DNA of 64,000 nt, taken from the NCBI GenBank assembly GCA_964023275.1, contig OZ029921.1:8036806-8100805 (forward strand). The letters run 5' to 3'. Each line of letters begins with the position of its first letter. Within the stretch, counting starts at the first letter, position 1. The notes under the pieces are model-generated. The model saw nothing but the letters and a program-made list of their open reading frames with translations, did not search any database and had not been told where the DNA came from. Of the stretch, positions 4,701 through 48,851 are shown piece by piece. A program made the position numbers and the translations under genes. The stretch comes from Norana najaformis (lineage: Eukaryota; Annelida; Clitellata; Crassiclitellata; Hormogastridae).

Positions 4701-7060
4701 CTGAAAATATGCCGTGATCTTTTTGTCTACCTTAATCGCACTTGAAAATTTCCGGTATTATATCTCTCTTCGTACAACCTTGACCAAGTGCAAACTTTGA
4801 TCACTGAGGAACACCGCAATTCTTGTTATCAGCAGGATCGGAAAATTCCTTTCAGGATGAGCAGCTTAATCGGGTTCATGGGTGAAGACAGGAAGAGTGA
4901 ACCACTGTACAGCAGGTCAACAATTTAAATTCTGTGCTGAAGAAGGTGTAGTAGTATGGGAGGTACTTAAACGGCGCTATATTAAGTGTCGAGAAACATA
5001 CACACGTGATAGATGGCGCCTAAACGGCAGACATATCCAGCTGCACCAGTCCTTTATGCTGCCTAACAATGCAATCCACAGAAGAATAACATTGTCATAT
5101 GAACAGAGAGTTTGAATGAACTGATTATTCCTCAAAAACCTTTATCATGCACGTAACTGCGCAGTCGTATCAGTATAGCGTGATCACGATTATAGCTCCA
5201 CCTTTCCACCTCTTATAACCTCGGAAGGAAATGGTACCCGGTTTTTTAGATTGTTCTGACTAAAATTACATTAAATTCGCATATCGCTGTTACACATTGA
5301 TGATAAACAATAGTGCATGAAGCTCAAGAAGGTCCAGAGGAGGACCAGAAGGACATTTTGGCCCAGGCCTTACATGAAGTAGAGGCCTCAGATTTTGAAA
5401 AAAGTTTTTATGTAATAATTATTAATGATTATTTCTCAATGTTTGTATTCTAATTCACAACTATGATTTAGTGCGCTTATGCTGTGCATGCTTCGAGATT
5501 GGGGCCTCGTATTTTCAGTGGCCTCTCTGAATCCCTGAAAGGCCTTGAGTCCAGTGGCTGAGTCAGAAGAGGGTCGAACCAGCCTTACGAGGTGAGTTCT
5601 CGACCAATCAGCAACTCAGAGAAACTGCGTCGCATATCACGAATCTTCTCCCACCCACCCCAAGCTCCCAACTGTCTCTGATTTATTTCCGTGACCCTGG
5701 GGTAGCTGATGCTGTGCTGCTGGGTCCGTGAAGAACAGTGCCCTCGAAAGCGCTGCCTACGAATTCGACAGAAACCCCGTGTTTACAGTTAAGACAGTTC
5801 TTCGAATGATCGGCTGGTCATCATCTCTGGCCGTAGGACTTATCGGTTCGTGCTTTGCTCCTGCCTTACAGGGCGTTTCAAAAACTGGCCCACCTCCGTT
5901 TGCGAACCCTGATTCGAAGCCCTCTTTCGTACAAGGCGTTTCCGAAGACTCCCTCGTCATTAGCAGCGTATTGTATATATGTTATTACATACACGTGGAG
6001 CCTCTTTCAGAACAAATTACTCAGAGGCGCTCTATAATTAATCACGTGCCTTGCTATTATACGGGGTGTTTAAAAAAAACGACGCATCAGTAATCTGCTG
6101 TCCTTAAATTGTGCGATCTTTTTACTAAACAACAACAACTACTACTACGACAACAACAACAACAGAGTAACAACAGGACAACCTATCATTACCAGTTGCA
6201 CGTATATTTCACCGGAATTCAAGAACCGGGGAGTTGGCTGAGGTAGAGATTCTAACTCCGTACACAGGGGCGAAAGATCAACGTCTTAGACAACGACGAT
6301 CGATCCAATAAGATGCGCAGAACTTCTTGGCCCACCCAGAGGGACAACTTCAAGTGACGGGGCCTCCTGTTTGTCTGCAGCACTTGCGCCAAATTACCCC
6401 TCCCCCTCTCTAGCTCTCGACCGAGACGAACACAATTGTTTCATCTGTAAAAATGCTGAAGCGCTTAAGAGGCCATTGTTCATTACTTCTTCGTCTTAAA
6501 TAAATCCGCCCTCTAATTCTGGAAATCATCTAAGTCGGCGGAGAGGCCTGAACTTGTCAAGAAAACCCTCACACGACCCCTCATTCCTCCCCTCCTACCG
6601 TCTTCGTAGCCGACCAGAACACCCTCCCCCGTCTGTGAAACCCTCTCGCGTACCATCGCCGCCTTCGCAACCCCTCTTCGCTCGGTCGCGGTCTTAGAAC
6701 CCCCCTGACAACGCCCCCAGAGGGGGCGATGAGATTATCAGACAAATTGAGGGCTCGGCTGTTATCTGTTCTTGTTTGTTAGTCTAAACAAGGGTAACAA
6801 TCCGAATTAGGCAGAAACCCCGTGATTTATGATGTATATACACTTGAGGGGCCGTTCCACCACCCTCCGTCGAGAGGCAGGGAGGGTTATGACGTCGTAG
6901 GACCACAGAACTGGGTAAACAAGAAACTGTGGTTCACCCTGGTGGCCAGAACTGTGCCCGTGTCCATTCGGGTGACATCTGCAGATGGCCCAGCGTCATC
7001 GTCATCGTCTCCCCCCGATTTAAGCCCTCTTGATTAAACCATCTTCGTTCCATATACACA
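4700..7060. other. Intergenic sequence, no gene recognised
   Basis: I see no conserved coding signal. Three GGCGTTTC/GGTGTTTAAAAA-like motifs after T-A-C-A/G (5868-5885, 5931-5945, 6060-6080) resemble each other and may be transposon-end remnants. Small open frames here lack splice or homology support. Confidence 0.5.
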
Positions 7061-7068
7061 CGCGCTGT

Positions 7069-7119
7069 CTCCGTCCGTCCGTCCGTCCGTCCGTCCGTCC
7101 GTCCGTCCGTCCGTCCGTG
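7069..7119. repeat. (CCGT)n microsatellite
   Basis: About 12 perfect CCGT units. Confidence 0.95.
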
Positions 7120-7359
7120 CTAAACATCTTTCGTGTACCAACACTACTCGCTGTATCCTTTCAACTGAGCTAATCGACATCCCTCTTTCCAGAACTGCCT
7201 TCATCCTCTCATCTTTGTCTCCCCTCTCTTTTCCCCAACAATTCCTCCCTCCTTCTCAGCTTCTCAACATACCATCTCTTTCTGCCAAACATTTCTCTTT
7301 TCTGGAGGTTTCGAACTATATAGCGTTTTAAGTACTTTTCCAAAGCAGCTTAAATACAC

Positions 7360-9539: not shown

Positions 9540-10850
9540 TCAGAGTGAAAGATTCTCCGCCCCAGATCTTTGTGTAGAGCCATGGCTATCCCCCCAATTG
9601 CCGCTCTATAGCCCTTGCTGTCAGCTGACCTCCAGTGCTAACCCTCCCCTCTCTGCCAACATTCAAATGACCTCTGTCAATCGGCCGATTTGTTTAGGAC
9701 TTGCCTTACAACGCGAATGATGGGGGTTTACAACCCCACTAAGACGATCAGTGGGTAAAGAAGTTAATCTTAATTCGAGTTCGTAACAAATGCAGAAGTT
9801 ATTTAGCGTCACCAACTGATATCATTAGACAACGGCGCTTCAAAACTGGGAATATCCACTCTTTCTCTATATCAGTGTTTCAATCTCTCGTCATCCTACT
9901 GATACATGTTTCTTTATATAGCGCCTCGTTGGATCCTGTTAAAGGCGCTCAACTTCCTTTCCTGATTCATTCCCCCAATACCTCTGCTCTGCTCTGCTCT
10001 ACTCTACTCTACTCTCCCACCTAACACCCCAACTTTCCAGTCTGGTCCTTGTAGAGATATTGCCCATCTGCATTAATTTGCTGTGATACGAATTCAATTA
10101 TCATAAGTTGAGATAAAGACTATTTACTGGCAGTGAACAGCGTTATCTGTGTTTAAATGTTTATCATTAGCTATTTAGGACGAGCTATAAATTAGTCATA
10201 ATGATTGCAGAAATAAATTAAGGATAATTTTAACTAAATGAACAAACTTGTTTAAGAATATAACTTACTTAAGGAATTTTTATATTATACCTATCTGCTA
10301 AGCTTCAAAAACAAATTGCAAATAGGTCAACAGCTAAAGTAATTCAAAGAAAATTTCTGGATTTTTAAAAATATATGCAAGAACTTTAAAATCATTGCAA
10401 CGTCTTCAAGATTAAATTAATAAGAGTGTAAGAACGATTGCTACAAGTCAAACCAAATGCAGCAATTTTGTCATTGGTTGCTAAGTTGTAAGATGAATTA
10501 CACCCTTTGCTTTTAAATCACCTGAAGATGTTGAAAAGAAGGAGTCTTGTTGTCTAGGAAGAAATTATTTCGAAAAAGCGTCTATGAAAGGCAGACGTCC
10601 AAGTCTTTCAATTCAAAGGCAGATATAATGAAAATGGAATAATTTTGTCATCAGTTTGGAATCGAGCTGCTGCTGCAGAGCAGAGCTGACGAAGTTGATT
10701 GGGAATAAAACCAGTTGAATAAGTGATGGTTTTCTGAAACCCTATCGTTTGCTGAATAGAGTTTTACAGATGGGCTGCGAACAGGTATCTTATCGCGAAA
10801 AAGTCCTGACCTCGCGCCAGACGTGTGAGCCGTAATAGGGAGCTTTATTG
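9540..10850. other. Intergenic AT-rich sequence, no gene recognised
   Basis: It holds a SINE tail (CTTTATATAGCGCCTCGTTG, 9912) and a short CTCTG/CTACT run (9985-10013). Otherwise it looks unique. Confidence 0.5.
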
Positions 10851-19723: not shown

Positions 19724-22700
19724 CTTTCTGTCTGTCTGTCTTTATCATAATACTCTCCGCGTTGTCTCTTTCTTTCTTTCTTTCTTTCTTTTTACGCGTT
19801 TCTCTCTCCCTCCCTCTCTCCCCCTCCCTCTCTCTCCCTCCCTCTCTTCCTCTATCCTACTATTTGTCTCAATCTCCATTGTTTTGAGTTGCCATTACAT
19901 GAATGTCTTTGACCTTGTTTACTGCGTACACAATGGTGGAACCGATGTTCTTTGCCCCTCTTCCTTTCCCTCTTCCTGTCCTCCTTCCTGTTTCCTTCTT
20001 TCCAGTGTCCTGTGATTTCCATTCCAAGGCCTCTGCATGTTTCCTTGGGAGGCCATGACACCATTTGCCATTTCCTGCCGGTCATAAAACAACTGCTTCT
20101 GCGCACAGAACTTAAAGGCTCACCTACACAGGGCGCCATAAAAACTGCGCCACCTGGAAACTGGTAACTTATGCGCTGAGGCCTTGCACTGCATTCCACA
20201 GATCCTGCAGTGTAAACGTAAATGTAAATTACACGGTTTTCTATAGCCACCGTATGGCCTCGACTCTGCTCAGTGTTCAATGAGTTTATCGGGTGAAATC
20301 CTTCACCACCGTTGCCCGTTTGAATGGGCGCCACGCCATTTAAGGTCCCCGTGTACGAACCGTGCTATAGCCCGAGATTCGAATCCATACTTGAGGTTTC
20401 TTTAAGATAGGCGCAATACTGGAATACAACTAATATACCATTATCACATAACATTTCCTACAGTATGTATGTTTGTACAGTATGCAGGTATGATGTATAT
20501 TTGTATGTATGCATGTATGTATGTATGTGGATATACACATGTATTATGTTAGTTAGCTAAATATTTATTATTGCGCCTTATTTGCCTCATAAAGCGCCAC
20601 CTACTCTGGCTTAAATGATATCAGTTGTCATTAAGAACATTAAGAACAAGTCAGCAAGCCAAACAAATTCACAGATAACCAGAAGAGTCAACAGCTGTGG
20701 ACTCACGCACACACGTGAATCCAAGGATCTAGCCCTTCTTGGTGAAGCCCAGCCAACGGATTCCTACACAGAATTGACAAATGATGCCATGTCCAGAGTT
20801 TCTGGACCAAACTGCGTCGATGTTGTGGAGCGACAGCTGGCGATAACCACCACCGTCCAACGATCCCTCGAAGGTAGTAGATGACTCAGCGCCTGTGTCT
20901 CCCTTCAGCCTCGGGTTCGCGTTAAACAGGTAGGCCCTATATAGCGGGCCGATAGGTCGAAGGGCCACTCGTGATTGACGGTCAAAGTTATTCGGAAGCC
21001 ACTCTTCGCTCCTCCTCCACTGAGACCAAAATTACCCGGTGTAGACGGCGTACATAGGTTCGTAGATTGGAGACACGACCGCACATGAGGAGACTCATCC
21101 CTGCTCATGCAGTCACCTAGGTCAAGGTGACATGCGAGGAAAACGTTCGAATTCCGCAGTGGAAGCGAGGATTAATTGCGAAACGCAAACTCGGCCAAAC
21201 ATGTAAGAAATTATTATCGAGCAGGTTTCGCATTTTTGACGAATAATCCGCCGAAATGACACAGAAGCCAACAACCGACTTGGATGTTGACATGCGGTGT
21301 ATGTATGTATGTATGTGTGTATGTATGTATGTATGTTTGTGTGTATGCATGCATGCATGCATGAATGGATGCATGTAACCTCACCTCCCTAACCTGACTT
21401 AGCATACTTAACCTCAATTAACCTACCTAAACACATCTCACATCCCTAATCTCACCTAGCGTTACTACTCTCACCTCATGACTTGTCTAACCTCACGTTA
21501 CCTACCTACCTAACCTCGCTTACTAACCTCACCTCACCTATTATTCTTCAGTGTTCTGTCCTTAGACAGGTCCAAGAATCCAACGTCGCCACTCTTCTCT
21601 GTTCTGTGCCCTTTCCTTAACTTCTTTGTAGCCACGTCTTCCTTCTTTATCCATCATCCAGTCCAACAGCATATTCCTTGGTCTTCCTGGAACCTTCTTT
21701 CGCTCAATTCTTCCTTCAATCACTCTCCTCAGGAGAGAATTTCCTCGCAGTATGTGACCAATCGAGTTCATTTGTCTCCTCTTTATTCTGTTGACCAGTG
21801 TCCTTTCTTCCTTTACCAATTGTAACACGTCATCGTTTGATTTATAATCCTGATTTTGGTCAATCTTTTCAGTTAACCTCACCCGTACCAAACATAACCT
21901 AACCAACCTAACCCCACTTTATCTGACGATTGTCGTTTTGCTTTGACGCAGCAGACATGAACGACGTCCCATACGTTGACATACCTGGACTACCGCCACT
22001 AGATGGCAGCACAGGCGATACGAGTCCACTCATGGCACCAGATGGCAGCCCAGCGAACAACGTGTGCGCCATCTGCAGTGACCGAGCGACGGGGAAACAC
22101 TACGGTGCTGCCTCCTGCGACGGCTGCAAGGGGTTCTTCCGCCGCAGTGTGCGCAAGAACCACACGTACACGTGTCGCTTCAACCGGAACTGTGTAGTCG
22201 ACAAAGACAAACGCAACCAGTGCAGATACTGCCGCCTGAAGAAGTGCTTCCGCGCTGGAATGCGAAAAGAGGGTAAGGTCCGTAAGTGGCTAAGATCGAT
22301 CGATCGATTGATATGATTCGTTGATTGATTGGTTGTTTGACTGATCGATTGCTTTGTTCGCTGGTTCGTTGACTAACCGAATCCATGCATACATGCATCC
22401 ATCCATCCATCCATCCACCCCCACACACACATCTATTCGTTTATCCATCCATTCATCTATCCAGCAATTTATGTGTTCATCCAACTATTTTGTATCGACT
22501 AACCTGTTCAACATGCTTATTACTTTATTTATTTATTTATTTCTATTTATTTCCTACAGCGGTGCAGAATGAACGCGACCGAATAAGCAATCGTAGATCA
22601 ACGTACGATGACATCAGCCAAACTGGGTCGCTGTCAGTCAATTCCTTAGTTCATGCCGAAATGTCCTCCAGACAGGTAGGTTATCAATCAACACATCTTA

Positions 22701-25700
22701 TTATCAGGTGAGTTTACGACAAGGGACGCCGGTCAGTCTTAGTTTCAAACAAATGAGTCGAAGTAGGCTTAAGAAAACTTTGTACTTCGTCTTCTTTAAA
22801 AGATGGACAGAATCACTAATCAGTCACAGAATTAAGCGTTAATTGTAACTGTAACTGTAATCGCATATTTGTATAGCGCCTTTTAAGGAAAACTGACGAG
22901 AGCCGCTCTCTACGCTAGCTTAAATGATGCTGAAGTTCTCTGAGAATTTTAACACTTCTGCCTCTTATCATGATAGGCAACTGGAGGAGAAAGACTGATA
23001 AGCCGTAAATAACCAGGAAAGAAGGCTCACCTGTCTATTAACTGTTTCAGATGGCGGTATCGTCGCCGACAGCAAGTGCAGACATATCGCAGAAAACGAT
23101 AGCGACGATATCCGATATCTGCGAGTCAATGAAGCAGGAACTTCTGATCATGGTTGAATGGGCTAAGTTCATACCCAGCTTCTGCGAATTACCGCTCGAC
23201 GACCAGGTATGCTCGTCTGATCCTCAGGCTCCGCTCCTAATATTGACATATCGTACGCTGAGTTTCATTAACACCAACTTACAATAATTACAGATATAAC
23301 AGCGCTGTAGTAACTGCGCTGCTCTTTAAGTAGCCATTTTCGTAGCTGCTTTTTAAAAGTATCTGTTGTAGTAATTGGAGCGATGCTGTTTAGGTAAAGC
23401 TACTGTAGTAACTGCTATGCTCCTTAAACGGCATATTGTGCAGGCTCATGTGCATGCTTGCGCGGTTTTAGGTGGCCCTTCTGCGAGCGCATGCAGGTGA
23501 GCATCTGTTGCTGGGACTGGCCAAGCGATCGTTGCCACACAAGGACGTCCTGCTGCTAAGCAACGATACGATCCTTCCGCGCAATTCGCCACATGACGTC
23601 GGCGTCAATCGAATCATCGCTCGCATTCTAGACGAGATCATCCAACCCCTCAGCGAAGTCCAGCTGGACAACGCTGAGTTTGCCTGCATCTCAGCGATCG
23701 TCTTCTTCGATCCAGGTCGGTGTTCGTTCGCGAGCTTCTTCAGGGCTGGGTAGCATAAGACAGACTGGCTCATGCTCAGCTGCATGTGGTTGAAGGTAGT
23801 CGTCAGCCACGGTCAGAATTCACCGTTGTCTTTGGTTTTGAGATCGTTGCTATGAACAGTGTAGTAGACACCATACTAAGAACGCCTTGGATTCTATCAG
23901 CTTAAGACTTACTGTGAGCCGAAAATGATCAAAACCGTAGGTCACAATCATTTTCCTATCCTGGCAATTATTGTTGTCCCTACTCTCGGATTTGGACCAT
24001 TATTTCAAGGCTTCTATCGCGTTTATCTTAGTAATTATACCCTACCTGTAGTTCCGCAGTTTAACGACAGCTTATGGCATCAAAGACCGTTGCCTTCGCC
24101 CTCCTCCTTTATCCAGGCTTGGGACTGGCATTACCCCCAAACAAGGCAGTGGCGGAGTTACCCTACCTGTAGCTGAGTAATCTTATTTATGTACGATGAT
24201 GATGCTAGCGATAACTTAGAGGATGGTCAACTCCTTCCGTGCCTCTGCTAACAAAGAAGACGGATCGCATACCGATCTTGCCCAAATTTCTGAGAATTTT
24301 ATTTCGGGGCTATAGCACGGTCCGTACACGGGAATCGAATATGGTGTTGCGCCCCATTAAAAAACGGGCATCTATGGTGTAGGATCGCACCTGATAAATC
24401 GTTGAAAAAATGGGGAAGCTAGAGGTAAACAAAAACGTGGTGCATATGTGGTGTTGATGTTCAACTTCCAGATGCCAAAGGTATAAGTGATCCGCAGAAG
24501 ATCAAGTCGATCCGTTACCAGATCCAGGTCAACCTGGAAGACTACGTCAATGATCGTTTGTACGACTCTCGAGGTCGCTTCGGGGAGATCCTTCTGATCC
24601 TTCCAAACCTCCAGAGCATCACGTGGCTGCTCATCGAACAGGTTCAGTTCATGATGACCTGCGGAAACCTTAAGATCGACAGTCTGCTGCAAGAAATACT
24701 CCTCGGAGGTCCGATTCTTATCTGTTCTTATCTGATCTGTGATATGGTCTTAGGCCTGTATGGTCTTTTATGATCTAATCGGATCTTATCTGGTCTTTTC
24801 ATATAGTATTGTATGATCTAATCTGATCTTATTGGGCATATATGATCTTATCTGGTCTTATCTGGTATTTTAAATGATCTTATCTGAACTTATCTGGTCT
24901 TATCTGGTCTATGCCGGTGTTTGCTTTTGCTCAGGTCTGGACTGTTCTTATCTTAGCCGATTTAATGTGAATCCAATTTAGATATTTTAATTTTAAAATC
25001 GACAGCATTTCTTTGTAGTATTATTGAAACTGTCCAAATGTATTACCGTATTAATCTAACCTGATCTAATCTAGCCTTGTCTTATCGGTTGTAATATGTT
25101 CTGATGTAGTTGATTTTAGTTGTTTATGGCTTATTACTGGCCTAGCAAAATCCTATTACAAATGGGTATAGCTTATTGCAAAAGGCGACAACATTTTAAG
25201 GAATATAGACTAACCTTTTTAATTCAAGCATAATTAATGTCGATAACTATACGAAAGTGTTATGGTTTCAATTTCAGTAAGATATAAATAAATTATCACA
25301 GTATATTATATAATAAAGAATGACCGAACGAATGAATGAATTGGATGGATGGATGGATGGATGGATGAAAGTCCATCTGACTGGTCATTTGGTGATTGGT
25401 TGTGCTTTTTTAGGGGTGATATACGACGGGACATCGAACGGACCAATGGGAACTGGACTTTCTCCAGCATCTCTGTTCCTGTCCCAGTCATGTGGTGGTG
25501 TGCTCCAGCCTGTTCAGTCCTCAACGTCATCGAGTTCCTCATTTAATTGTAACCCCTCTTCGTTGGTCTCACGCGACTACCACCCGTCACGCCCCACGCG
25601 TCGCCACCTAGAGACAAATTTTGACTTTGCCACTTCTGAGGACGGGTGTCTTCCGCATGGTCTCCTATCCTCTTCCGGAATGACGGCAGAGCACCCAAGA

Positions 25701-37088: not shown

Positions 37089-37560
37089 CAGGAAGGCAGG
37101 CAGGCAGACAGGCAGGAAGGCAGGCAGGCAGACAGGAAGGCAGGCAGGCAGGCAGGAAGGAAGGCAGACAGGCAGGCAGGAAGGCAGGAAGGCAGGCAGG
37201 CAGACAGGCAGGAAGGCAGGCAGGCAGGCAGACAGACAGGAAGGCAGGAAGACAGGCAGGAAGGCAGGCAGGAAGGCAGGCAGGCAGGCAGGCAGGCAGG
37301 CAGACAGGAAGGCAGGCAGACAGGCAGGAAGGCAGGCAGGCAGGCAGACAGGAAGGCAGGCAGGCAGGAAGGCAGGAAGCCAGGAAGGCAGGCAGGCAGA
37401 CAGGAAGGCAGGCAGACAGGCAGGAAGGCAGGCAGGCAGGCAGACAGGAAGGCAGGCAGGCAGGAAGGAAGGAAGGCAGGAAGGCAGGAAGGCAGGAAGA
37501 CAGGAAGGCAGGCAGCAAGGCAGGAAGGCAGGAAGGCAGGCAGGCAGGCAGCAGGCAGGC
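37089..37560. repeat. 470-bp AGGC/CCTG tetranucleotide array
   Basis: It is made of GGCAGGCAGGCA runs with GGAAGG and GACAGG variants. On the minus strand it begins where related LINE tails have only CTGCCTGCCTGCCTGAC (49.1 kb). It is therefore an expansion of a short CCTG run in the element's 3' UTR. Confidence 0.9.
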
Positions 37561-37790
37561 CGCTAAAGTGGGTGGTGTTTGGAATTAGATCTGCAGGATA
37601 GAAAATGGGAAGAAGAGGATTCAGGATAGGATCTGCGGAAGAGGAGTGTTTTTAGTTTTGGGTGGAAGACCTGAGCAGAGATTGCAAGGGGTGAAGTGAT
37701 GGTGCTTTCGTATGGTAGATCAGATAATTGTCGTAATTCTGGCGGGAGTTTATTCCTCAGGGGTGGTGCATGCAGCCATACATACATACG
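37561..37790 (-). mobile_element. LINE ORF2 end adjoining the CCTG array
   Basis: Translated on the minus strand in two frames, it resembles the ORF2 end: GINSRQNYDNYL and HPLQSLLRSS match NKLPQNYDSYL and HRLQF of the 29.8-kb copy. AATTCCAAACACCACCCACT then leads straight into the tetranucleotide array. Confidence 0.6.
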
Positions 37791-37814
37791 AACGTATGTA
37801 TATACATACCTACA

Positions 37815-37925
37815 TGCATAGTAATTAATTAATTAATCAATCAACTAATTAATTAATTAATCAACCAATTAATCAATCAAGCAAGCAATTATTGAAATAA
37901 TTAAATTAAGTAATTAATTACACAG
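37815..37925. repeat. (TTAA)/(AATC) tetranucleotide stretch
   Basis: AATTAATTAATTAATCAATC units. Confidence 0.85.
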
Positions 37926-38327
37926 TGCAACAGTGTTGTATTTTCCACATCAGCTGATGCTTTGTAGTTGGTCTGTGGCGCTATAGAAATTTGCAGACGA
38001 AAGAAATTATCAACTGCTTGTCTTTTTGTTATTAATATTGATTTTGCAACTTCCGCAACTTTATCAGTTTGATTCCATGAATCATCGATCGTCACTAATG
38101 CATCGATTAATTTAGCGGTTTGATATATAACCGCGACAGTAACGAAATGACGTCATTTTCGATTTGTGCTGCCTTCCGGCTGATTACGTCATCTTCATTG
38201 TTAGTATTGGCTTTCTTTATGGGAAGAGCGTTTTTGGAAATTGTCGTTTATTGGATATTTCTAGACATTTAATCGGCGGCGAATCTCTAACTTTAGCGAG
38301 GATTACATGGACAGCTGACAGCTGACA

Positions 38328-39944
38328 ATGTGCCTTAGGTGCTTATATCCCTGTTTCCGACGGCTACTCGCCACGCTGACGAGACCGTCGATGGTGAGTG
38401 GACGTGTCTCGGATTCTGCACGAGACACTGAGCTCACGATGCCTACGGAGCCCGTAGAAGAGTTCTCGTCGATCGAAGGACGTTCAGGATTTCAATCCAG
38501 AGCGATAGAGATCGGTTTGGCGTTGCCTACGGAGCCCGTAGAAGAGTTCTCGTCGATCGAAGGACGTTCAGGATTTCAATCCAGAGCGAGAGAGATCGGT
38601 TTGGCGTTGCCTACGGAGCCCGTAGAAGAGTTCTCGTCGATCGAAGGACGTTCAGGATTTCAATCCAGAGCGAGAGAGATCGGTTTGGCGTTGCCTACGG
38701 AGCCCGTAGAAGAGTTCTCGTCGATCGAAGGACGTTCAGGATTTCAATCCAGAGCGAGAGAGATCGGTTTGGCGTTGCCTACGGAGCCCGTAGAAGAGTT
38801 CTCGTCGATCGAAGGACGTTCAGGATTTCAATCCAGAGCGAGAGAGATCGGTTTGGCGTTGCCTACGGAGCCCGTAGAAGAGTTCTCATCGATCGAAGGA
38901 CGTTCAGGATTTCAATCCAGAGCGAGAGAGATCGGTTTGGCGTTGCCTACGGAGCCCGTAGAAGAGTTCTCGTCGATCGAAGGACGTTCAGGATTTCAAT
39001 CCAGAGCGAGAGAGATCGGTTTGGCGTTGCCTACGGAGCCCGTAGAAGAGTTCTCGTCGATCGAAGGACGTTCAGGATTTCAATCCAGAGCGATAGAGAT
39101 CGGTTTGGCGTTGCCTACGGAGCCCGTAGAAGAGTTCTCGTCGATCGAAGGACGTTCAGGATTTCAATCCAGAGCGATAGAGATCGGTTTGGCGTTGCCT
39201 ACGGAGCCCGTAGAAGAGTTCTCGTCGATCGAAGGACGTTCAGGATTTCAATCCAGAGCGATAGAGATCGGTTTGGCGTTGCCTACGGAGCCCGTAGAAG
39301 AGTTCTCGTCGATCGAAGGACGTTCAGGATTTCAATCCAGAGCGATAGAGATCGGTTTGGCGTTGCCTACGGAGCCCGTAGAAGAGTTCTCGTCGATCGA
39401 AGGACGTTCAGGATTTCAATCCAGAGCGATAGAGATCGGTTTGGCGTTGCCTACGGAGCCCGTAGAAGAGTTCTCGTCGATCGAAGGACGTTCAGGATTT
39501 CAATCCAGAGCGATAGAGATCGGTTTGGCGTTGCCTACGGAGCCCGTAGAAGAGTTCTCGTCGATCGAAGGACGTTCAGGATTTCAATCCAGAGCGAGAG
39601 AGATCGGTTTGGCGTTGCCTACGGAGCCCGTAGAAGAGTTCTCATCGATCGAAGGACGTTCAGGATTTCAATCCAGAGCGAGAGAGATCGGTTTGGCGTT
39701 GCCTACGGAGCCCGTAGAAGAGTTCTCGTCGATCGAAGGACGTTCAGGATTTCAATCCAGAGCGAGAGAGATCGGTTTGGCGTTGCCTACGGAGCCCGTA
39801 GAAGAGTTCTCGTCGATCGAAGGACGTTCAGGATTTCAATCCAGAGCGATAGAGATCGGTTTGGCGTTGCCTACGGAGCCCGTAGAAGAGTTCTCGTCGA
39901 TCGAAGGACGTTCAGGATTTCAATCCAGAGCGATCCAGAGATAG
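38328..39944 (+). CDS. Candidate repeat protein, 5' part (18 copies of a 28-residue repeat)
   Basis: An ATG at 38328 opens MCLRCLYPCFRRLLATLTRP, then a short unique leader, then 18 copies of a 28-residue unit (LPTEPVEEFSSIEGRSGFQS plus RAREIGLA). The unit is acidic, with no Cys or aromatics except Phe, so it is probably disordered. The frame ends at TAG just after an 8-bp insertion (ATCCAGAG) in copy 18. A strong donor-like GATG|GTGAGT at about 38392 lies before the repeats, so the array could instead be intronic. I do not recognise a family. Confidence 0.4.
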   Translation: MCLRCLYPCFRRLLATLTRPSMVSGRVSDSARDTELTMPTEPVEEFSSIEGRSGFQSRAIEIGLALPTEPVEEFSSIEGRSGFQSRAREIGLALPTEPVEEFSSIEGRSGFQSRAREIGLALPTEPVEEFSSIEGRSGFQSRAREIGLALPTEPVEEFSSIEGRSGFQSRAREIGLALPTEPVEEFSSIEGRSGFQSRAREIGLALPTEPVEEFSSIEGRSGFQSRAREIGLALPTEPVEEFSSIEGRSGFQSRAIEIGLALPTEPVEEFSSIEGRSGFQSRAIEIGLALPTEPVEEFSSIEGRSGFQSRAIEIGLALPTEPVEEFSSIEGRSGFQSRAIEIGLALPTEPVEEFSSIEGRSGFQSRAIEIGLALPTEPVEEFSSIEGRSGFQSRAIEIGLALPTEPVEEFSSIEGRSGFQSRAREIGLALPTEPVEEFSSIEGRSGFQSRAREIGLALPTEPVEEFSSIEGRSGFQSRAREIGLALPTEPVEEFSSIEGRSGFQSRAIEIGLALPTEPVEEFSSIEGRSGFQSRAIQR

Positions 39945-40690
39945 AGGTCGGTTTGGCGTTGCCTACGGAGCCCGTAGAAGAGTTCTCGTCGATCGAAGGA
40001 CGTTCAGGATTTCAATCCAGAGCGAGAGAGATCGGTTTGGCGTTGCCTACGGAGCCCGTAGAAGAGTTCTCGTCGATCGAAGGACGTTCAGGATTTCAAT
40101 CCAGAGCGATAGAGGTCGGTTTGGCGTTGCCTACGGAGCCCGTAGAAGAGTTCGTAGAAGAGTTCTCGTCGATCGAAGGACGTTCAGGATTTCAATCCAG
40201 AGCGAGAGAGATCGGTTTGGCGTTGCCTACGGAGCCCGTAGAAGAGTTCTCGTCGATCGAAGGACGTTCAGGATTTCAATCCAGAGCGAGAGAGATCGGT
40301 TTGGCGTTGCCTACGGAGCCCGTAGAAGAGTTCTCGTCGATCGAAGGACGTTCAGGATTTCAATCCAGAGCGATAGAGATCGGTTTGGCGTTGCCTACGG
40401 AGCCCGTAGAAGAGTTCTCGTCGATCGAAGGACGTTCAGGATTTCAATCCAGAGCGAGAGAGGTCGGTTTGGCGTTGCCTACGGAGCCCGTAGAAGAGTT
40501 CTCGTCGATCGAAGGACGTTCAGGATTTCAATCCAGAGCGAGAGAGATCGGTTTGGCGTTGCCTACGGAGCCCGTAGAAGAGTTCTCGTCGATCGAAGGA
40601 CGTTCAGGATTTCAATCCAGAGCGATAGAGATCGGTTTGGCGTTGCCTACGGAGCCCGTAGAAGAGTTCTCGTCGATCGCAGGACGGTCT
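38442..40690 (+). repeat. 27-copy tandem array, 84-bp unit
   Basis: Copies begin every 84 bp from 38442. There is one 92-bp step (39870 to 39962, an 8-bp insertion) and one 96-bp step (40130 to 40226, an in-frame 12-bp duplication of GTAGAAGAGTTC). Copies differ at only a few positions: AGA/ATA, ATC/GTC, and a silent TCA for TCG in copies 6 and 15. The last copy decays after SSIAGRS. One reading frame is open throughout. Confidence 0.97.
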
Positions 40691-40801
40691 TTGCGTACTG
40701 CACGCGCGCCTGTCACCGAGGCTTCGACGCCAACTGCAACAGCAGGAGATGGCTTGGCGCCCCTTACGGTAGGAGCCCCTTCTCTTTTTATTAAATTATG
40801 A
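39953..40801 (+). CDS. Candidate repeat protein, continuation in shifted frame
   Basis: After the +8 shift the same repeat continues in a new frame for nine more copies, one with a duplicated VEEF. A unique tail with Ala/Thr-rich RAPVTEASTPTATAGDG follows, and the frame stops at 40799-40801. A donor-like ACG|GTAGGA lies at 40768. It is most simply the second half of one ORF broken by the 8-bp insertion, an assembly error, or a decayed gene. No in-frame ATG begins it. Confidence 0.35.
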   Translation: MALPTEPVEEFSSIEGRSGFQSRAREIGLALPTEPVEEFSSIEGRSGFQSRAIEVGLALPTEPVEEFVEEFSSIEGRSGFQSRAREIGLALPTEPVEEFSSIEGRSGFQSRAREIGLALPTEPVEEFSSIEGRSGFQSRAIEIGLALPTEPVEEFSSIEGRSGFQSRAREVGLALPTEPVEEFSSIEGRSGFQSRAREIGLALPTEPVEEFSSIEGRSGFQSRAIEIGLALPTEPVEEFSSIAGRSLRTARAPVTEASTPTATAGDGLAPLTVGAPSLFIKL

Positions 40802-41737
40802 CCTCCATTTCAAGCCTCTCGTCACGGGGGCGAATTGTTTTGATCTGCAGTGGACGGAGGTGTGTCATTGAATCGATATTCGTGCTTGAAATTGTCGATG
40901 ACCGGTCATGGTTGACGTGCTGGTCATCTGTTGACGGTCACCGCGGTTCGATTCCCTGTCCGCTGGTCGATGACCGAGTTGATTCAAACTGTGGCAGAGA
41001 AGTTGGGACATCCTGTGATCCGCTTTCGGATCGAATGCCTCTGCCCGGTTTTTGTGAATCTCCCCCATTTGATGAGACAAATATGTCGGGGACCTGCTTT
41101 GACGACGAAACAGCTGTCGAAGTATGTCAGCAAGACTCCCACGATGACATGAGTGATCTTGATGATGATGATGATGATGATGATGCTGATGATGATGATG
41201 ATGACGACGACGACGACGATGATGATGATGATGACACAAATGATGGCCCCGCGAATGACGACAGTTCTGAGCCCGATCCTGACCAAACATTGGTGAAAGT
41301 ACGTGAGGAAGTCTCCCTTGTAGACAGAGATGAACACGATGATGTTGACACTAGGGTCCACAGCGAGGGTCGGTCAGGTGGTGCAGGTAGTCAAGACGAT
41401 TACACCAGGTCCAGGTCAGACTGATTCCCTGCACAGTTTTGCAGGCGATGCCAGTGAACAGCGTTTCCCAGACCCTGTTCTGCCGCGAGGGATTCTTCAA
41501 AGGGCGACAGGTCATACCACGGTCCACCCTCTCAAAAAATTACTATCGCTCAGACTGTTTACAGAGGGACCTGAGGAGGATCGATTGATTGTGATCAGAG
41601 GGGACAATGACAGCGACGCGAGTGCAAATCCAGTTGATCAATCAAATGTTGAAGGCAAAACTGTTTGTGATAGTAATCTTTCGGACCCTGCCCCCACTCT
41701 GGGAATTCTTAAACAGGCCCACTGTTCACTGTGCTGA
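40798..41737 (+). CDS. Candidate Asp-rich protein, two exons with a 58-bp intron
   Basis: An ATG at 40798 overlaps the previous stop (ATGA). The open frame reads through LPGFCESPPFDETNMSGTCF to a run of about 25 Asp around 41160-41240. Donor GCAG|GTAGTC (exon end 41386) and acceptor TTTTGCAG| (exon start 41445) are both phase 1 and join GGA|GDASEQRF, extending the frame to TGA at 41735-41737. Without splicing it stops at 41424. The second part has a GIL..TVH..LLSLRLF..EED motif that recurs downstream. The real 5' end may be different, because the first 50 codons look less protein-like. No known family is recognised. Confidence 0.4.
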
Positions 41738-41739
41738 GA

Positions 41740-41825
41740 ATTTACTGAAGGTGCGGGTGTTTGAAAAAGGCTTTGATGAAGACCTTGAAATCATCGTTGT
41801 GGCCACTGAACCAGGGCCATTTTGA
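41740..41825 (+). pseudogene. Frameshifted second copy of a small domain
   Basis: In the frame of 41607 the stretch reads PTVHCAENLLKVRVFEKGF and then DEDLEIIVV. This aligns with TTVHPLKKLLSLRLFTEG and EEDRLIVI encoded at about 41515-41590. The preceding GILK of the second copy is in another frame, so an indel separates the halves. It may be decayed or use an unseen splice. Confidence 0.45.
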
Positions 41826-42534
41826 GGTCGTCGTAGGCCCTAAGCACTATCGCATTCGTACCCCCCAACTGCCAACTATGCATTAGAGCTAAACACATTC
41901 ACATTATTTCTTGACGTCTATCTTGCCTTGCACTTTTTTCAATTGAAAACGACTTAATGCGGGAAATGACATTTGAGGACATTATATGTGATGTTGCTAA
42001 TGCAAAGAGCTGCAAAGTTAACCTAATGTAGCACAGCTTAACTTAAACTGTTTCAGTACAGACTTTAAGGTTATTAAATTTGTATTACCTTTTTCTATTT
42101 TCGGGTCAATCAATACATTTATTTTTTTCAATATCTCATTTTTGACTTTCGTAGGCCCCTATAAAGTTCGTAGGCCCTAGGCACAGTGCCTACTGCGCCT
42201 AATGGATAAGACGGCCTGAACGTGACCGTGAGGTTGGTTTTGGTGACCAGAGACAGAGGAGCAGAGAAAAGGATGATAGCTGGGATTCCAGCGGCCCGGG
42301 AAGTGTTTAAAACTTGTGTGAGCCAACCTAAGCCAAGTACAGACATAAGTTGGATAAAATTATACATTATATTCGATATTATATACAAGAACATTTTGGT
42401 TATTTGTTTGCAACCACTGGAAAAGTTTATTATACTAGATACACTCGGATGGGAAACTTTTAGTCTTCACGAGGCGTATATTTTGAAAAAATATTTCGTC
42501 ACTTGCAAAATTTGTGACGTAATATCAGAGTATA

Positions 42535-43873
42535 CAGTGGCGAATCCAGAAGGTTTATAAGGGGGCCAAATGGGCATCTGGGGCCAAGCTCCAGTGGGGT
42601 CCATGGGAAAGCCAGTGGTCAGGGTTTGGAGGGGCAAAGCCCCTTTGCAACTGAAAGCATTTAGGCCTATATAGCTATTAATTTTAATATATATAAATTG
42701 ATAGCTATATATAATATATATATATATAGAGAGAGAGAGAGTTCAATCTGGTTGTGGTATTTGTACCTTGTTCCATATACACTGATATAATTGCATTATT
42801 TGCTAAATCCGCTTATCCAGGTTTCCTTCTTTCACCGTAGCACCACATCCTAAACATTTCTAGCCTTAGCATCTCATTGCCTTGAAGTCTTTTGATTTTA
42901 ACACTGAGCTGAAAATTATGCGGATTTTATTTGAATGCACAGCTTTTGTGTTGAATTAAAGTTACATTTATGCGAAGTACATTACACGGCGTTATTGTTT
43001 ACTATTCTAATGTAACCTAATTTGAAAACTTCTATAGCACCACTATCATAACACACAAGGGATCAATCAATGGTCGCTTCAAAGTGAATGATAATTAGTT
43101 GGACAGACTGATACAACATATTATTTAAATTTGTTTGTTAAACGGAAGTTTAGCAAATTCACTAAAGCGTTGAACGGAAGCAGATGAGTTTGGACGGAGA
43201 ATAGATGGCCAAATTGCAATTACTCGCTAGAAACAGTTTCTGAGAGAGATAAGTATATAGGGGCCTATAGAAAAATGTGATAAAATGAAATTATGCCAAG
43301 TCTACCTGCTCCCTCTGTCTTCATCTTCGTAAATGACAGGGTCGTCTGTTTCAAACGTAAAAACGACTTGGGGTGTGGTTCTTCTGACATTTTCACTCAT
43401 TTTGTATAAAACATATTTGGCTAAATGACCGCTAAACGAAAGCTGTCAGACATCCGATGACATCGATGAAAGATTGTTGTAGAGTTGAGCCATTTACACA
43501 GTGTTCAGAATTTTATTTCGCCGGTGTGTAATTTAAAGTATAAAAGTTGCTTGTTGTGTACAATTGTATATGTGGGATCCTTTGTGTAATCCTAACCCTA
43601 CATGGCAGAAGCGTTCCTCTTTCCCCAAGCGACACCGGGTGGGCTACACGGTGGAATGCTCCTCTCGCTCCTAGCCACGCCCGGGAGGGTGAGGTCAGCG
43701 ACACAGGATGAAGTAGGCCTGGGAATGATACGGAGAATGGGGATATAAGCGGAGGATTACACATGATTTTCTGTTCTTCACGAAAGATCACGTAGTGACC
43801 ATCGCCTATTTTGGGATGGGGCCACGGCCTATGTAAATATCAAATGGATTGGCCTCCATTGGATCCGCCACTG
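42535..43873. mobile_element. Nonautonomous hAT-like DNA transposon (~1.34 kb)
   Basis: It starts CAGTGGCGAATCCA and ends TGGATCCGCCACTG, a 14-bp terminal inverted repeat with one mismatch, of the CAGTGGCG type common in hAT elements. Flanking 8-mers AGAGTATA and ATAGTACA match at 6 of 8 positions, as for an old hAT 8-bp target duplication. No transposase ORF is visible inside. The interior is AT-rich, with a TA/GA microsatellite near 42700-42740 and a SINE-like TCTATAGCACCACTATC at 43030. Confidence 0.65.
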
Positions 43874-44356
43874 ATAGTACATATCATTGTATTATTTTTA
43901 TAGTATTAATGTTTGTTCAGTGGCAAATTAAATTGAAAAATAAATTAAATGCCGTCAGGGATATGTTTTAATTATTGAAACAAATCCCATATATCCTTAT
44001 AATAGTCTTTTTTATAATATAGCTCGCTTTTGTTTGTGCTTGCCATTTAAGTTAGTGGTCCTCGAGCTTCAAAAAAATTATTGCTGGTCCGTGGCCTGCT
44101 GAATTTTAAGAACCACTGAACGATTAGAGTATTAAAATTATAAAAATGAGTAAATTATTCCACTGAAGAGATCTCTCGTATATTGATGTCATTTTCTATA
44201 CCTGATACATTTATAGGCATATGATGTCACTGTTATTGTCTCTTTCGATTGCGTTGATTTGAGATTTGGCGATAGTGTTTTCAGTACGGTGTTTTTGAGT
44301 CTTTTTGAGAATTATCTCTGCGATTTGTGGATTTGCTGTTTGGGTGTCAAGACGAG

Positions 44357-45205
44357 ATGATATGTTGTGTCTTCCAGCGCAAGTTGTTTGGCCGCAACCA
44401 GAGCGACGATTCCGATATGGTCCCACTGAACACCAGAACAGATCGCAACACCTCTGTCGCATTGGATATATTTGACGAGGTCCTTGCTTCCGGCGTCGAC
44501 GCAAGGCATGACACCTGGCGGCCACCAGTTACGCACTGCTGGGCAGACAGTGCAGCGGACAAGACGGCCTCGAACAACCCGAGGGGAGATGGTTGCTTCG
44601 GTCCAGTGCAGATTTGCTGGGCCGACGACTGCAACCAGACTCCCCTCGTCTGCGCCACGCCAGTTGATGACATGCCGTCTGCTGCTGCAGCTGCTCCAGA
44701 GTACGCTGAGGCATTTTCTGACGACGCCTCAGAGCTGAGCAGCTGGTCTGTCAACACGGACATTGACGCAAGGGCTGCTGTGACTGATAAAGCAAGGTCA
44801 GAGGCTCCACCCGTTGCCACAGCCACCTCTTGCGTCGTCGTCATTGTCGACGACATGTGTGATGAGGCTGCCGAGAGTTACACAGAAGCTCCAGTAGCTT
44901 TGAACACTGGGGAGGTAGTACTGGCCATGGAGGACACAAACCCTGACTCGGCATGTGCTCAGTCACAAGAGGCGTTTTGCAAGACCGCTAGAAAAACCCG
45001 ACGTGAACGGAACAACGCAAGGTATTCCTGCACTGATCCACATCCTCATGAAACCGACGACTATGAGGGCTTCATCGATCCATCCGTCAGATGGATCCTA
45101 GAAGATGTCAAAACGTACAATCTGACGCCGTCAACCACCCACCATACAACAGCCTTCATGCGGCCATTCCGATGGCTGTGGAGGAAAATACGTATCTCAA
45201 ACTGA
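44357..45205 (+). CDS. Acidic, Ala/Asp/Thr-rich hypothetical protein or terminal exon
   Basis: The frame is open for 283 codons from ATG 44357. A good acceptor, GTCTTCCAG|, opens the same frame at 44378 in phase 0. Composition is even and protein-like (DDSDMVPLNTRT, DDASELSSWS, VVVIVDDMCDEA). There are two CWAD motifs (THCWADSAAD, QICWADD) and a basic-aromatic C-terminus, MRPFRWLWRKIRISN. The stop is at 45203-45205. It is probably the last exon of the 38-45 kb locus, because Asp-rich and SDDSD-type sequences occur in both parts. No domain is recognised, and there is no signal peptide or membrane segment. Confidence 0.55.
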   Translation: MICCVFQRKLFGRNQSDDSDMVPLNTRTDRNTSVALDIFDEVLASGVDARHDTWRPPVTHCWADSAADKTASNNPRGDGCFGPVQICWADDCNQTPLVCATPVDDMPSAAAAAPEYAEAFSDDASELSSWSVNTDIDARAAVTDKARSEAPPVATATSCVVVIVDDMCDEAAESYTEAPVALNTGEVVLAMEDTNPDSACAQSQEAFCKTARKTRRERNNARYSCTDPHPHETDDYEGFIDPSVRWILEDVKTYNLTPSTTHHTTAFMRPFRWLWRKIRISN

Positions 45206-45251
45206 CCAGAGGAAGGACATGATGACATTAGATTTCCTGGAAAGTCGATAT

Positions 45252-45690
45252 CTATGAAGAGAAGAAGAGGAACGATATCACTGAAGAGAAGAATAGAAAC
45301 GATATCAATGAAGAGAAGAATAGAAACGATATCAATGAAGATAAGAATAGAAACGATATCAATGAAGATAAGAATAGAAACGATATCAATGAAGATAAGA
45401 ATAGAAACGATATCAATGAAGAGAAGAATAGAAACGATATCAATGAAGAGAAGAATAGAAACGATATCAATGAAGAGAAGAATAGAAACGATATCAATGA
45501 AGAGAAGAATGGAAACGATATCAATGAAGAGAAGAATAGAAACGATATCAATGAAGAGAAGAATAGAAACGATATCAATGAAGAGAAGAATAGAAACGAT
45601 ATCAATGAAGAGACAATGAAGAGAAGAATAGAAACGATATCAATGAAGAGAAGAATAGAAACGATATCTAAGAAGAGAAGAAGAGAAGAA
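45252..45690. repeat. 16-copy 27-bp minisatellite after the acidic ORF
   Basis: The unit is AATGAAGAGAAGAATAGAAA plus CGATATC. Copies differ at GAGA/GATA and by one partial copy near 45610. It starts 47 bp after the stop of the 44.36-45.2-kb ORF. Nine-codon periods give open frames on both strands (for example MKRRIETIS), which I do not regard as coding. Confidence 0.9.
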
Positions 45691-48752: not shown

Positions 48753-48851
48753 GTACCTGCTTCGGCAGTACATATACTAAAATTGGAAGGATACAGGGAA
48801 GATTAGCATCGCAAGGATGACACGCAAATTCGTGAAGCGTTCCATATTTTT
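48753..48851 (+). ncRNA. U6: U6 snRNA-like gene copy, variant or pseudogene (8-nt deletion)
   Basis: The sequence follows metazoan U6 nearly base for base: a 5' stem-loop around CTTCGGCAG, then ACATATACTAAAATTGG, then AAGGATGACACGCAAATTCG, GAAGCGTTCC and a T5 terminator. Differences from the vertebrate sequence are changes in the 5' stem that still pair (GTAC with GTAC), ACAGAGA changed to ACAGGGA, and an exact 8-nt deletion between AGCAT and CGCAAGG. The deletion removes the 5' arm of the internal stem-loop that holds the catalytic metal site. A TATA box lies at the correct Pol III spacing. By family knowledge this RNA should not support splicing, so it is probably a pseudogene with an intact promoter. 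Confidence 0.9.

Follow-up and report, generated by a model that had tools for sequence, protein, structure and literature searches.

The 84-bp tandem array at positions 38442 to 40686 of the window is probably a coding minisatellite in a dispersed, multi-copy gene, of which the window carries a damaged copy. The window is the whole 64,000-nucleotide stretch that was analysed (C9:8036806-8100805), in a genome of 608,420,607 bases and 17 contigs; all features of the gene and its neighbor described below lie on the + strand. TRF reported a tandem array at 38440-40686 with a period of 84, 26.5 copies, 97% matches and a score of 4202, far above the chance level. This confirmed the array of the preliminary description, which had given it the whole interval from 38328 to 40801, whereas the repeats are confined to 38442-40686. 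The unit, PTEPVEEFSSIEGRSGFQSRAREIGLAL, encodes 28 residues and is present in 26 complete copies followed by a degenerate last one, whose match is limited to its first half. The 27 unit starts run from 38442 to 40646, and their spacing is 84 bp in 24 of 26 cases, the exceptions being 92 bp at copy 18 and 96 bp at copy 21. These reflect an 8-bp insertion, ATCCAGAG (39933-39940), and an in-frame 12-bp duplication (40141-40165), both of which had been described beforehand and were found again, the former as the only frame break in the array; both are absent from the other array loci and thus private to the window. Three unit positions vary recurrently among the copies, a silent third codon position (27) and two replacement sites (65, R/I; 70, I/V).

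The array is preceded by an N-terminal coding stretch, MCLRCLYPCFRRLLATLTRPSMVSGRVSDSARDTELTM (38328-38441), with three in-frame ATGs and an 84% identical protein at another array locus (L010, see below), and is followed by a coding tail, SLRTARAPVTEASTPTATAGDGLAPLTVGAPSLFIKL (40688-40798, stop at 40799-40801), that aligns to relatives of the gene without an array. Further upstream, a conserved block that holds TGACGTCA (38096-38264) is also found 5′ of these array-less relatives, with 72-75% identity to nine of the ten loci, one over 38096-38217 only, among the matches listed. Positions 38149-38191 of this block contain TGACGTCA and TTACGTCA, which we take to be CRE-like. The frame that starts at the ATG of 38328 is open until 39941 and meets a TAG (39942-39944) immediately past the 8-bp insertion. 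Beyond it the unit frame stays open in another register until 40798; as the unit contains no ATG, the copies past the insertion have no start of their own.

An open frame through such an array is weak evidence for coding when taken alone, a stop-free frame being usual in a random 84-bp unit. In simulations of 20,000 trials for each of three null models, tandem 84-mers had one or more open frames among the six in 87% of the cases for the shuffled unit, 94% for a first-order Markov model and 79% for random 84-mers of the window. The frame proposed in the preliminary description is indeed open, but a second + frame of the unit is open too. Likewise, the IEGR tetrapeptide said to occur in each unit is present in all window units except the last (IAGR) and is missing from the unit at C1:36.35 Mb. 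Neither feature can thus serve as a ground for coding as had been thought. Since the open frame told little by itself, we searched the genome for relatives of the array.

The array-bearing gene has 13 dispersed copies, three with an array and ten without. The search detected two further places with an array, C9:22.64 Mb (L009) and C1:36.35 Mb (L010). L009 has its unit in common with the window (13.0 copies by TRF, the last degenerate); this locus starts within the array, its 5′ part is missing, and no in-frame ATG is present ahead of the array. L010 was detected through 66 bases at 82%, mainly in the flank, and has, at the same position and in the same frame as in the window, another 84-bp unit, PTEIVEEVAAVPGRLMDVSRANVCGPSI, in 16 complete copies followed by a degenerate one. 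Its unit has VPGR instead of IEGR and is open in additional frames, including on the other strand. The measured spacings are 84 bp in 12 of 12 cases at L009 and 15 of 15 at L010. A frame that spans 554 codons between stops contains the L010 array, and this locus has the longest ATG-bearing frame through the array among the three. As in a coding minisatellite, the period is thus a multiple of three and the frame is open on both sides of the array.

The window and L010 units are identical at 46 of 84 positions in their shared register, the next best register giving 31. Translated in the array frame they reach a BLOSUM score of 48, against 1 and 11 in the remaining frames, and random placement of the 38 changes gave a mean of 12 (P = 0.0023 for the observed value). 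A comparison of rates among codon positions had been proposed as a check; between the two units the positions differ at 13, 10 and 15 sites (P = 0.61), a result that alone would argue against coding.

Matches within arrays amount to 97-99%, versus 46/84 between the window and L010 units, as in concerted evolution. The flanks are more alike, with 97.6% identity between the window and L009 (over 39573-43977), and 94.6% (40681-44289) and 90.1% (37318-38465) between the window and L010. Judging from these sequences, the unit of a whole array was replaced in one branch while the flanks diverged by 5-10%. The first L010 copy matches the window unit at 21 of its first 24 bases, versus 18 of 24 for the inner L010 unit; this copy at the edge appears to preserve an earlier version of the unit, the outcome expected under unequal exchange, few bases bearing on this point.

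The ten array-less copies were identified through a C-terminal module of the protein, which has 13 matches in the genome; a DNA search gave the identical 13 loci (in 14 rows). At the site corresponding to the array, these ten copies have none. Open frames of 548 and 534 codons are present in two of them, L025 and L028; the other eight are interrupted earlier, at 26 to 421 codons, L026 by a nested transposon. The transposase-like open frames in L026 (positions 5556-7165 of that locus), the first of which matches DUF659 with an E value of 0.0054, below the cut-off, are presumably hAT-like. The array-less protein passes from MFRRLFGRWFGCLLETLFGMPVAQGGEVDV directly into EAATPPGAAEEDPVQVVAPQIFY. 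In the frame of the array, the window tail EASTPTATAGDGLAPLTVGAPSLF aligns to EAATPPGAAEEDPVQVVAPQIFY with P = 0.001, and the L010 tail with P = 0.037 (2000 shuffles each); the aligned segments are EASTPTATAGDG..PLTVGAPSLF in the window and EAATPPGAAEED..PVQVVAPQIF in the relatives. The N-terminal protein of the array copies did not align significantly to the array-less N terminus (P = 0.16 and 0.41), and the alignment of the window and L010 units to the protein of these relatives was likewise not significant (P = 0.98 and 0.36). When the two flanks were aligned to L028 as DNA, the scores were barely above the best of 300 shuffles (37.0 versus 34.5 and 34.5 versus 33.0). The homology of the tail nevertheless places the array between the first 38 codons and the part that resembles the relatives, and shows that the frame on its 3′ side is theirs. 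Another array-less copy, L033, contains a different in-frame repeat of 156 bp (52 residues) elsewhere in the gene.

The paralogous units and the array-less open frames thus argue for a coding minisatellite rather than for a satellite that lacks stops by accident, the alternative left standing in the preliminary description. We consider it improbable that the array is a non-coding minisatellite, stop-free by chance in one or two frames. The frequency of open frames under the null models, the second open + frame and the similar rates at the codon positions all fit such a chance satellite, as do the many other arrays of the window with non-triplet periods, such as 52, 145, 40 and 31 bp. It does not account, however, for diverged units that resemble each other specifically in the array frame, for a tail homologous in frame to an array-less open frame, for the 84-bp period retained in all paralog spacings, or for the in-frame repeats within the long open frames of related genes. 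Reading diverged paralogous units in all frames is a way to tell coding minisatellites apart from satellites that lack stops, without RNA.

Two other explanations bear on how the locus is read. The array might be an intron spliced out from the GT of 38394 (ATG|GTGAGT), a donor that fits the consensus at eight of nine positions and is also present in L010. However, the + strand of the window has 32 sites, counting this one, with a score of 8 or 9 out of 9, about one per 2 kb; moreover, the longest array-less relatives are uninterrupted across the corresponding part, and their coding sequence is similar to the tail that follows the array, making the intron quite improbable. It is more improbable still that the window copy is intact and that faulty assembly created the frame break at 39.93 kb. 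The break is the sole one of its kind in 27 copies, and the insertion duplicates adjacent letters, but the locus also differs outside the array, by the stop at 40799 and by later parts in other frames, and these differences are partly common to L009 and L010. A locus without the 8 bp would therefore still be unable to encode the full protein of the relatives.

The damage to the window copy extends well beyond the array. The tail stops at 40799, whereas L009 and L010 continue for 14 codons more. The gene continues at 40834-41157, in a frame that differs from that of the tail, with 48-58% protein identity to the ten array-less relatives and an acidic GAT/GAC run after it. A first C-terminal module (41432-41734; 46-49% identical in the ten relatives) is in a frame different from that of the preceding stretch, and a second one, TVHCAENLLKVRVFEKGFDEDLEIIV (41718-41822), in another frame again; the latter is an internal repeat of the former (42% identity over 26 residues) and is 61-65% identical to nine of the ten relatives. 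In L025 and L028, the middle part and both modules are all in one frame. L009 has the same frame changes as the window from tail to middle, module 1 and module 2, and L010 has the first two of them. With the TAG at 39942 past the insertion and the remainder in other frames, no uninterrupted frame crosses the window locus. The insertion, the earlier stop and the shifted downstream frames indicate that this copy is most likely a pseudogene, and a long protein is most likely not translated from it. The locus is thus better regarded as one damaged duplicate among the copies of a gene than as a single intact gene spoiled by 8 bp. The module region, in the window (41432-41822) and in the corresponding part of L025-L034, contains GIL/GIPK...TVHWAEELREVRVFEKG, which may resemble the SILK and RVxF motifs for docking to protein phosphatase 1; database searches with the array-less module and protein gave no support for this docking-motif reading.

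Measures of constraint on the protein are mixed. In the N-terminal stretch (38328-38441), replacement over silent changes per site amount to 0.36 in the array frame, versus 1.01 and 1.99 in the others, and for this stretch and the unit together the ratio is 0.60, silent changes exceeding replacement changes per site (Fisher P = 0.031, on rounded counts). Relative to their consensus, the ten array-less copies, with L026 entered minus its nested transposon, have 24 silent and 85 replacement changes, a ratio of 3.54 versus 2.49 expected (P = 0.14); replacement changes are thus not depleted among these copies, and the kind of change gives no sign of purifying selection. Differences from the consensus affect 0.9% of sites in the array-less frame, compared with 8.8% upstream and 4.9% downstream, a contrast on which we do not lean as these flanks contain low-complexity sequence. 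For the older divergence between the window and L028, dN/dS is 1.02 in the middle part, and 0.62 and 0.77 in the two C-terminal modules. Given these mixed ratios between the window and L028, among the array-less copies and between the units, constraint on the protein appears weak and is perhaps partly in the past.

The probable course of events is that a 28-residue segment near the N terminus of a dispersed, apparently intron-less gene expanded in frame within a single branch of the family. The copies within a locus would then be homogenized by unequal exchange or slippage; their near-identity is observed, and the exchange is the presumed mechanism. A different version of the unit has taken over at a paralogous locus, whose flanks remain 90-95% identical. 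The window copy is a damaged duplicate, its frame ending in copy 18, with an early stop in the tail and the downstream parts in other frames. The homogenized in-frame repeat envisaged in the preliminary description is thus supported, in a gene without a credible Pfam match. The predicted product would comprise the N terminus, (28 residues)n and a short tail, without confidently predicted structure. For eight repeats (225 residues, single sequence), structure prediction gave a mean pLDDT of 45.7 and a pTM of 0.16, with a low-confidence helix in each unit. Our best guess is that the protein is a disordered spacer, under weak constraint, whose length and charge outweigh its exact letters. One genome would thus hold a graded series, with no array, array A, array B and a truncated array, in which one can follow how a coding repeat arises, is replaced and is lost.

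At four array-less loci, the gene is located between two P-like elements or remnants, in composites of about 20-23 kb (L028/L039/L040, L031/L050/L051, L026/L053 and L034/L052/L054). P-type transposase domains were sought in one of them, L026, whose left element contains PF12017 (E 4.6e-12) and PF21787 (E 8.8e-14). The terminal sequence has 239 occurrences in the genome at up to 2 mismatches, versus 1 for the control. Perfect 8-bp target-site duplications were found at all four insertions tested, out of the ten array-less loci. The outer flanks have identical duplications at C7:14.85 (GTCCAAGG) and C7:11.09 (GATAGACC); at C9:16.82 and C13:19.44 the left flank was read and the right end predicted, and the genome contains a single occurrence of each predicted 21-mer, at C9:16840300 and C13:19458764. 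The array-less relatives thus indicate that a P-like transposase can mobilize a gene-bearing segment of 13-16 kb flanked by a pair of its own elements. No such transposon ends occur, at up to 4 changes, in the stretches of the window, L009 and L010, indicating that the window copy spread by another route.

The block includes a second gene of 282 codons (44357-45202), copies of which are located beside the array at L009 and L010. Gene 2 has 18 matches in the genome, eight of them confined to the approximately 50 C-terminal residues, in open frames of 208 to 1071 codons. Between the window and L009 its dN/dS is 0.59, the L009 copy having one stop. Directly after gene 2, the window has a 27-bp array (45246-45687), and L009 has a 51-bp array in its place (9725-9900). 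Over window positions 40682-45400, these two loci diverge by 0.3%-5.4% per 300 bp ahead of gene 2, and by 6% to 43% across gene 2 and its 3′ end, a pattern that suggests patchy gene conversion. The C-terminal motif of gene 2 is shared by L047 (C17:16.55 Mb), L048 (C13:9.69 Mb) and L049 (C6:12.68 Mb), which are single open frames of 1071, 781 and 699 codons, stop to stop, with large in-frame arrays (81, 234, 42 and 63 bp) and a 68-bp array past each stop. Recent differences in these three loci revealed no constraint, the ratios ranging from 0.9 to 4.7 on small counts, with one undefined. Speculatively, and rather doubtfully, the block might belong to a lineage-specific superfamily of intron-less genes for long repeat proteins, acidic and disordered, with a short basic/Cys N terminus, a conserved C-terminal motif and adjoining minisatellites, in which repeats would be replaced wholesale faster than flanks diverge and part of which composite P-like transposons would have spread. 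If true, this would describe a mobile, fast-changing repeat-protein family, perhaps selfish or conflict-driven, with PRDM9-like turnover.

Several candidate identities were rejected. A repeat precursor cleaved at a factor Xa-type site is not tenable because IEGR is not conserved, being VPGR in L010 and IAGR in the last window copy. The Pfam family HCS_D2 matched both array frames (59.3 and 39.7 bits, cut-off 27) with no single significant stretch, and the matches of DUF3330 and Rad26-like_N to the array frames and of CDC45 to the acidic stretch reflect composition or summed weak stretches; the array-less protein has no Pfam match. Matches to gp120 in the PDB, obtained with the C-terminal module (best E 0.00065), were attributed to composition, as no domain supports them, and the array-less module gave a single chance-level match (E 0.097). 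A search of the phage collection with 361 bases of the array found no match, and Rfam at gathering scores gave nothing at the array; its one match in the window is a U6 snRNA (48753-48851, 82.9 bits). The window also contains a nuclear receptor gene (21927-24770), which matches zf-C4 (E 1.5e-30) and a ligand-binding domain and presumably resembles HNF4.

Our literature searches returned no title on this gene family or on composite P-like elements. In the parts of the sources available to us, the nearest systems are PRDM9, spidroins, P elements and maize macrotransposons (PMC9910405). The zinc-finger array of PRDM9, as presented in the available part of PMC3890296, is similarly a coding minisatellite whose unit measures 84 bp (28 residues), with rapid turnover and distinct first copies; in contrast, the gene described here is multi-copy and has no credible Pfam match. 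Nor does its unit encode C2H2 fingers, as the two Cys and two His that they require are missing (no C or H in the window unit; one C and no H in that of L010). The aciniform spidroin AcSp1 of Argiope resembles our gene in organization, with tandem coding repeats between short non-repetitive ends, several loci per genome and intragenic homogenization; its repeats are more than 98% alike and, on the partial account available, vary less between species than the ends do (PMC3933166), whereas in the present gene the divergence between paralogs is far greater in the units than in the flanks. Finally, P-element/THAP9-like transposons share with the four composite array-less relatives terminal inverted repeats, 8-bp target duplications and, at L026, a P-type transposase domain; unlike the elements covered in the accessible portion of PMC7776569, two P-like elements or remnants here jointly move a 13-16-kb passenger, and the window copy has no such ends.
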